Assembly (NCBI RefSeq): GCF_012027615.1
Contig: NZ_SNUT01000003.1
Span: 1 to 64,000, forward strand
Reading direction: 5' to 3'
DNA length: 64,000 nucleotides
Source of the DNA: Thermococcus sp. 21S7
GTDB taxonomy: Archaea > Methanobacteriota_B > Thermococci > Thermococcales > Thermococcaceae
A program made the position numbers and the translations under genes. Shown in pieces: positions 60,740 through 62,443 of this stretch. The notes under the pieces are model-generated. The model had not been told where the DNA came from. It did no database searches and was given only the letters and a program-made list of their open reading frames with translations. The number at the start of each line of letters is the position of its first letter. Position 1 is the stretch's first letter.

Positions 60740-60955
60740 TCAGGCCTCCTGAAGAAAAGATTCCAGCCTGATGAACTTCAGGATGGCACGGACTTCCTCG
60801 GGGATGTCCCCCAGCCTCCGGGGGTCTCCCAGCATCTCAAATACCTCGATAACTTCCGTCGTTTTCCGCTCTCCCCTCTTCTTTGGAGGGTACCCCTGCC
60901 AAGGGGGATAGTACCTCACGAACAGCTCCCACTTCCTCCTCCCGGATATCCTCAT
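60740..60955 (-). CDS. Small protein of unknown function, 71 aa
   Basis: From ATG 60955, which follows GGAGATAGTG: RISGRRKWELFVRYYPPWQG, KKRGERKTTEVIEVFEML and DIPEEVRAILKFIRLESFLQEA. Soluble and basic, with no recognised domain. Upstream in-frame starts reach 61081 but enter the non-coding region with the TnpB-like hairpin. Convergent with moeA at a gap of 8 bp. Confidence 0.55.
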   Translation of the reverse strand: MRISGRRKWELFVRYYPPWQGYPPKKRGERKTTEVIEVFEMLGDPRRLGDIPEEVRAILKFIRLESFLQEA

Positions 60956-61054
60956 CACTATCTCCATAGGGGAATTGGCGGTTATCCTAAATAAAGCTTT
61001 TCTGACCGGATTTTGATGACCACTATAAATGGTTACCAAAAATTCTGACCTCCT

Positions 61055-61074
61055 CCCCACCCTAAAGGGCGGGG
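61055..61074. repeat. TnpB/IS605-type end hairpin, solo remnant
   Basis: CCCC-A-CCC, loop TAAA, GGG-C-GGGG. Together with the flanking TCTGACCTCCT and GGCTTTC it resembles the right-end hairpin seen at the 3' end of many tnpB genes and their guide RNAs. No transposase gene is present here. The window begins with a tnpB fragment that lacks such an end, but 60 kb separates them and no direct link is claimed. Confidence 0.4.
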
Positions 61075-61099
61075 CTTTCAAAAGAAAAATGTAAAACTT

Positions 61100-61318
61100 G
61101 AATATCGCCCGCCCGTAACACCCGCCCCCATCGGTGCCCAGCGGCGAGCTCGGGCGGGCTAACCCAGGCGGGCGGTTTGTGCCCGGTCTGGGTTTCCCGC
61201 GGTCATCGCGCTCCGTAACGCGGAAGGCCCTCCCGCGGGGACCTCGCTGAGACCGGGCTGTGGCCCCCGCATCGCCCCCCGGTTCATTCTCCCCGGGGTC
61301 CTCGCGCGGGGGCGTTTT
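61100..61318 (-). ncRNA. Triple-hairpin H/ACA guide sRNA
   Basis: A very GC-rich minus-strand transcript with three H/ACA units. Unit 1: GCCCCCGC (61313-61306) pairs with GCGGGGGC (61270-61263), upper stem CCCCGG/CCGGGG, loop with GA...UGA (K-loop), box ACA at 61261-61259. Unit 2: 9-bp GCCCGGTCT (61258-61250) with AGACCGGGC (61189-61181), upper CCCGCGG/CCGCGGG, K-turn GATGA at 61207-61203, ACA at 61180-61178. Unit 3: CGCCCGCC (61174-61167) with GGCGGGCG (61113-61106), upper CCCGCCC/GGGCGGG, box ATA at 61105-61103. TATA TTTATATAC at about 61335-61344 and a T-rich end (61081-61097) fit. Unit 3 pocket (GUUA; GUUAC) fits GUAAC-U-A-UAAC, the 23S site of E. coli U1915; unit 2 (GGUC; AACCC) fits GGGUU-U-A-GACC near U2586. 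Confidence 0.85.
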
Positions 61319-61334
61319 AAAGTTGGGCAGGGGG

Positions 61335-61345
61335 TATATAAAGGT
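61335..61345 (-). promoter_or_regulatory. TATA box of the H/ACA RNA gene
   Basis: CTTTATATACC on the minus strand, about 25 bp before the 5' end of hairpin 1, located at the 3' end of the DUF835 sensor gene. It gives the RNA its own promoter. Confidence 0.65.
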
Positions 61346-61348
61346 GCC

Positions 61349-62443
61349 TCACTCCATGAGTTTCCTGAGCTGGGCGTACTGTCTTGGCTCAAAGCTTGTC
61401 TTCTCAGCGACGAGGATAAGGGTTCCGTTGTTAACGACCACAAAGTCCCGGAGCTTGGAGAGGAATTTCAGCAGGCTCTCCCAGGGATTATAAACCGCCA
61501 GATACTCAAGGCAGTCTATTATGACTACCCCGCGGTCTCCCACCCTAGCCAGTCCATCGAGATACTTGTAAGAAAGCTCGGTCATCCTAGTTAGGTTTGT
61601 GGGATCTATCGTATCCTTGAAGGTTCCTTGGAACGGTATAGTGGTCACGAAGTAGTACTGCCACCCGTCCGGAACTTGGGTAACGTCCCGGACGAATGCC
61701 AGAACCGGCCTATCCTTGAGCTTCTCCTTAATCGCCTGATACTCCTTCCCGTTAACGATCATAACGCCAGGCTTCAGATCAACTGGAGCGGTGACCTTTC
61801 CTTTCTGTGGTGTAAATGACTCGGAGGATGTAAGCTTTACCATGGCCACTACCATGCTAACTATCAGTATCGTAGAGATGGTAAAGCCCACCGCCTTGTA
61901 CCACTCGGTGATGCCAAAGAGCGCAGCGGGGACCAGGTGAAGGCCAAAGAGTATGACACTTATGTACAGATACCTCACGGCGCTCTTGTAAATCTCCTCC
62001 GTCTCCTTCAGCAGAAGTCCTCCCGCTATAACAAACACACCAGTTATACCCAGAGTGGCGGCACTTGTTATGGTCCACACGGCGTCTTCAGTATACAGAT
62101 ACACGCCAACTATGTACGCCATAAACGCCACAGGCATTATCGCCAGAATGGCCAGGGTTCTGTGTCTAACGGTGATTGATTCTTCCTCAAGAAACTTCAC
62201 CGCGCCGTAGAATATAAAGGCGGAGAACGCAGGCAGTAGCACGATGCCAATCATCTGCACGATGGGGTTTGTAATGGTGGTAGAGAGAATGGCCAGAAAA
62301 TCAAAGATCCACGCTATGGAGAAGGCCAAGGCGGATTTTCTTCTGTTGCGGAGGTATATACGGAATATCCATCCAGCGGCCATGAGGTCCGCGATCAGGA
62401 CCATTACTGCCTCAGCAAACACGAGTGCCTGGATGCCATCCAA
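61349..62443 (-). CDS. Seven-TM sensor with C-terminal DUF835 domain
   Basis: 364 residues. About seven hydrophobic segments in the first 215 residues (ALVFAEAVMVLIADLMAAGW, AFSIAWIFDFLAILSTT, IVQMIGIVLLPAFSAFIFYG, LAILAIMPVAFMAYIVGVYLY, TSAATLGITGVFVIAGGLLL, YLYISVILFGLHLVPAALFG, TISTILIVSMVVAMVKL), then a cytosolic DUF835 domain (about 230-364) with GVVIIDCLEYLAVYNPWESL and FEPRQYAQLRKLME. Probably a membrane receptor feeding an unknown pathway. It lies 6 bp after the adenylate-forming gene, in one operon. Confidence 0.85.
   Translation of the reverse strand: MDGIQALVFAEAVMVLIADLMAAGWIFRIYLRNRRKSALAFSIAWIFDFLAILSTTITNPIVQMIGIVLLPAFSAFIFYGAVKFLEEESITVRHRTLAILAIMPVAFMAYIVGVYLYTEDAVWTITSAATLGITGVFVIAGGLLLKETEEIYKSAVRYLYISVILFGLHLVPAALFGITEWYKAVGFTISTILIVSMVVAMVKLTSSESFTPQKGKVTAPVDLKPGVMIVNGKEYQAIKEKLKDRPVLAFVRDVTQVPDGWQYYFVTTIPFQGTFKDTIDPTNLTRMTELSYKYLDGLARVGDRGVVIIDCLEYLAVYNPWESLLKFLSKLRDFVVVNNGTLILVAEKTSFEPRQYAQLRKLME

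Follow-up and report, generated by a model that had tools for sequence, protein, structure and literature searches.

The window analyzed here, a stretch of 64,000 nucleotides from Thermococcus sp. 21S7, contains an RNA gene on the minus strand that matched the HgcG model (RF00064) over its full length in an Rfam scan of the window (61098..61369, –). The match covers model positions 1–276 and scored 210 bits (cmscan, E = 9.8e-60) against a gathering threshold of 77. Approximately the first 56 model positions correspond to the promoter and 5' flank, and the first RNA base is at 61313. The minus-strand RNA from 61313 to 61098 is therefore HgcG, also known as Pab40 or Pf7, an sRNA already catalogued in Thermococcus and Pyrococcus. 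An earlier note on this DNA had recognized a triple H/ACA guide RNA and had proposed a search with models of this type. The class was right, and the search added what the note lacked, namely that the locus belongs to a catalogued family. HgcG was the single match in its own genome and was above cut-off in all 37 same-genus genomes searched. Weaker second matches occur in relatives. These were rejected as further copies of HgcG because in both of the two that were checked the match had the same place as the HgcE guide.

A TATA box (TTTATATA) lies at 61342-61335 on the same strand, 22-29 nt before the first RNA base and immediately after the upstream DUF835 gene's stop codon. A TATA-like box was seen at a similar location in the 30 sequences inspected. 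Transcription of Pab40 in P. abyssi begins with the first base of unit 1 (PMC4652768), and the predicted start of this RNA is the same. Downstream of HgcG there is a 74-aa open reading frame (60740-60964, –) that has no Pfam match and is apparently conserved beside HgcG at three other loci (L006, L011, and L016).

Directly behind the RNA gene is a 46-bp terminal-only IS200/IS605 (PATE-like) element (ATTTTTCTTTTGAAAGCCCCGCCCTTTAGGGTGGGGAGGAGGTCAG; 61047..61092, –), which is inserted directly after TTAC and is not part of HgcG. The tract ATTTTTCTTTT found at the gene's 3' end comes from this element. Thus, the T-rich end described earlier is present, but most of it is ATTTTTCTTTT within the inserted repeat. 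The left end of the element has 33 near copies in the genome and none in a backward control, and the left-end sequence occurs in 24 of the 37 same-genus genomes searched. Among 30 copies inspected, about 14 consist of a left end fused to a right end and at least seven run on as left ends of longer elements. Other copies of the 46-bp element are found, for example, at L095, L096, L099, L101, and L102, and several right ends adjoin TnpB genes. Because the hairpins at the left and right ends hardly differ, deletion between them would yield exactly the 46-bp form, which resembles the terminal-only PATEs of 52 bp described in Haloquadratum (PMC3119063). One relative (L016) has an apparent empty site. 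The element also explains a partial match to the HgcC model (RF00062) downstream of HgcG, which we rejected as a second guide RNA. Of the five HgcC transcripts expressed in T. kodakarensis, three originate from transposase genes (PMC4247193). A second insertion beside HgcG was observed in another species (G004; L020 1-96), where an IS200/IS605 right end lies in the opposite orientation in the HgcG 3' flank at the contig end.

The RNA itself consists of three stem-pocket-stem units on the minus strand between 61313 and 61103. Unit 1 (61259..61313) has the lower stem GCCCCCGC/GCGGGGGC, a K-loop with the GA/UGA signature, the pockets GCGAGGA (61305-61299) and GGCGAU (61276-61271), and an ACA box at 61261-61259. 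Unit 2 (61178..61258) has the lower stem GCCCGGUC/GACCGGGC, a GA/UGA signature, the pockets UCAGCGAGGUC (61250-61240) and AAACCCA (61195-61189), and an ACA box at 61180-61178. Its 5' pocket is unusually long at 11 nt. Unit 3 (61103..61174) has the lower stem CGCCCGCCU/GGGCGGGCG, the pockets GGGUUA (61165-61160) and GUUAC (61119-61115), and an AUA box at 61105-61103. The three boxes are where they had been placed from the sequence, with a distance from upper stem to box of 15, 15, and 14 nt in units 1, 2, and 3, respectively. Productive archaeal guides follow a rule of 14-15 nt (PMC4652768), and this spacing lies within it. Only units 1 and 2 have the full GA/UGA pairs that had been described above the pockets; the reading in unit 3 is GA/UGG, and in the 30 sequences compared UGG occurs in 5 and UGA in 25. 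The boxes of units 1 and 2 are ACA in 30/30 sequences, and that of unit 3 is AUA in 18/30 and ACA in 12/30. In this genus units 1 and 2 share a common segment, GCGAGG-N-CCCC.

To this we can add the results of folding and covariation. Folding of the minus strand, as the earlier note had recommended, gave an energy of -128.4 kcal/mol (z = -3.8), and none of 200 shuffled sequences was equally stable. In an alignment of 30 Thermococcales orthologues, 97.3% of the cells of the 51 proposed pairs were standard pairs. Changes on both sides were found in 12 pairs, compared with a mean of 5.7 in shuffled alignments, and this number was reached in 0/500 shuffles. Compensatory changes in related genomes, whose lack would have counted against the structure, are therefore present. 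When the partners were slid out of register, pairing fell to 32-53%. Across the 30 genomes the pocket nucleotides are nearly all invariant and the stems are variable.

The genome encodes Cbf5 (452 bits) and Gar1 (37 bits). In the proposed mechanism L7Ae would contact the K-turn or K-loop of each hairpin, and Cbf5-Nop10-Gar1 would bind the hairpin at the stem and the ANA box. The two-sided pocket would then pair around a single 23S rRNA uridine, which Cbf5 would isomerize to pseudouridine. The structure, its covariation and conservation, the complementarity between pockets and rRNA, and the Cbf5 and Gar1 genes are established directly in this analysis; by analogy with related RNAs, HgcG probably acts as a guide in Thermococcus sp. 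21S7.

We compared the pockets with the genome's own 16S and 23S rRNA. The top-scoring sites were U2592 for unit 1, U2682 for unit 2, and U2020 for unit 3. All three pockets thus match the genome's own 23S rRNA, a comparison that had been suggested beforehand, with the match of unit 1 being statistically weak when taken alone. Shuffled pockets gave an equal score in 30/300 cases for unit 1, in 5/300 for unit 2, and in 0/300 for unit 3. Duplex energies alone, with pocket geometry ignored, did not single out the right sites of units 1 and 3. In the peptidyl-transferase center of the 23S rRNA, the position corresponding to E. coli A2503 is a C (own 23S 2599, L031). This C is shared by the genus (ACCUCGCUGUCGG) and by the class's other families where readable (relatives L042-L058, L059, and L060).

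Because its pocket score was equaled so often by shuffled pockets, and the match by itself is not significant, the assignment of unit 1 leans on outside evidence. Pab40 guides modification of P. abyssi U2588 in vitro, and in T. kodakarensis the pseudouridine at U2592 is lost without Cbf5, Nop10, or Gar1 (PMC6138745). The pair Pa40.1-L2588 is called a true pair in PMC4652768. The unit 1 pocket GCGAGGAC is unchanged in distant homologues outside the genus, where it sits on wholly different stems, and the rRNA target CUUGCUACCUCGCUG is unchanged across the class where readable. The target of unit 1, which had been left unassigned, is thus the U2592 (P. abyssi U2588) of the Pab40.1 assignment in the literature, and by analogy unit 1 would guide 23S U2592 (E. 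coli 2496) in Thermococcus sp. 21S7.

For unit 3 the earlier proposal of E. coli U1915 proved correct. Its equivalent, U2020, was the top site, and PMC4652768 gives the corresponding position, L2016, as the target of Pa40.3 and its orthologues. The 23S sequence at this target is GUAACUAUAACCCUC in the genus, and other families within the class have GUAACUAUAACUCUC. In the genus, rRNA UAACCC is matched by GGGUUA in the guide. In genus g5, rRNA UAACUC is matched by GAGUUA, with the guide taken from L073 and the rRNA from a different genome of the same genus (L060). Guide and target have changed together in compensatory fashion. These sequence comparisons suggest that unit 3 guides 23S U2020 (E. 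coli 1915) in this strain.

Unit 2 is less straightforward. Its best pairing is with U2682 (E. coli 2586), where the 3' pocket forms six pairs and the 5' pocket pairs through GACC and UCGU around one bulged G. The E. coli 2586 equivalent has been proposed for the haloarchaeal homologue and for an alternative fold of Pab40 (PMC2584109). The earlier note had named this target, and it is indeed the best pairing found here. However, PMC2584109 cites data in which pseudouridine at the 2586 equivalent was not found in P. abyssi, and PMC4652768 lists L1932 as the target of Pa40.2. Since these two sources go against U2682, this target of unit 2 is unproven in Thermococcales. Most likely it is one of two sites that are preceded by GGGUU, U2682 or U1936 (P. 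abyssi L1932). The odds seem about even that unit 2 guides U1936 and not U2682, using an alternative fold with a much longer single-stranded side. Along with the missing modification in P. abyssi, the Pa40.2-L1932 listing and the 23-nt guide side given there for Pa40.2 point this way, and the AGGGUU upstream of U1936 in the genome's own 23S rRNA fits the AAACCC pocket. By contrast, the 5' pocket of the canonical fold pairs better downstream of U2682, and U1936 was absent from the best-scoring sites in the scan of the genome's own rRNA.

We consider it doubtful that in Thermococcales the middle unit serves the peptidyl-transferase center, either as the guide of U2682 (with none reported) or as the missing guide of 2589 through its complement to 2593-2602 (9-10 bp). 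The second of these ideas is very improbable when taken separately. It holds that unit 2 is guide or helper at the orphan pseudouridine 2589 via its 5' pocket CAGCGAGGU, which is perfectly complementary to 23S 2593-2601 over 9 bp (9-10 bp) and is invariant in 30 genomes; this pseudouridine needs L7Ae, Cbf5, Nop10, Gar1, and an unidentified RNA (PMC6138745). However, shuffled pockets gave 9 bp in 330/1000 cases and, for the longer variant, 10 bp in 75/1000, the likeness of units 1 and 2 in that segment could account for the complementarity, and the 3' pocket has no fit upstream of U2589. In addition, six P. abyssi H/ACA sRNAs were each assembled into particles in vitro, and none of these modified the equivalent U2585 (PMC6138745). 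We therefore rejected unit 2 as the guide of 2589 on the basis of the shuffle statistics and these published negative tests. It is scarcely credible that the hairpins as a whole arise from chance folding of GC-rich sequence, or that they are a transcribed repeat with no guide role: high-G+C helices do form readily, with shuffles averaging -109 kcal/mol, but the covariation, invariant pockets, box spacing, family match, and experimentally studied orthologues all contradict it.

Two distant homologues outside the genus (L071 and L072, from G041 and G057) keep units 1 and 3, but their middle hairpin differs and its pockets are unrelated. This suggests that unit 2 may have been replaced or be of separate origin.

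The closest known systems are the HgcG, Pab40, and Pf7 RNAs of Thermococcales. These match over the full length and have the three units in equal order, and the targets 2592 and 2020 correspond to 2588 and 2016 of Pab40. The differences are ordinary sequence drift only, with UGG in the unit 3 K-turn and the 46-bp IS element directly behind the gene in this strain. A triple unit in one transcript is uncommon, as had been remarked, although Pab40 and Pab35 are precedents. Archaeoglobus Afu4 also has three H/ACA motifs per RNA, and its third motif is related to Pab40.3 and targets the E. coli 1915 equivalent, whereas its units 1 and 2 are directed elsewhere (PMC4652768). In Haloferax volcanii, the homologues described for stems II and III of Pf7 are Hvo1 and Hvo2, which target the Haloarcula positions 2621 (E. 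coli 2586) and 1956/1958. By contrast with HgcG, the H. volcanii RNA has two hairpins separated by a long spacer and is without unit 1 (PMC2584109).

Together, these data indicate, with a probability of roughly 95%, that the locus is the HgcG gene, a stand-alone transcript of three H/ACA hairpins in which units 1 and 3 would be directed to U2592 and U2020 and unit 2 most likely to U2682 or U1936. The pockets of unit 2 are invariant in the 30 genomes aligned, and yet its published targets disagree. Unit 1, by comparison with its earlier standing, now has an assigned target. The value of these results is otherwise confirmatory: Thermococcus sp. 21S7 keeps an intact copy of a modification guide that is well studied in archaea.
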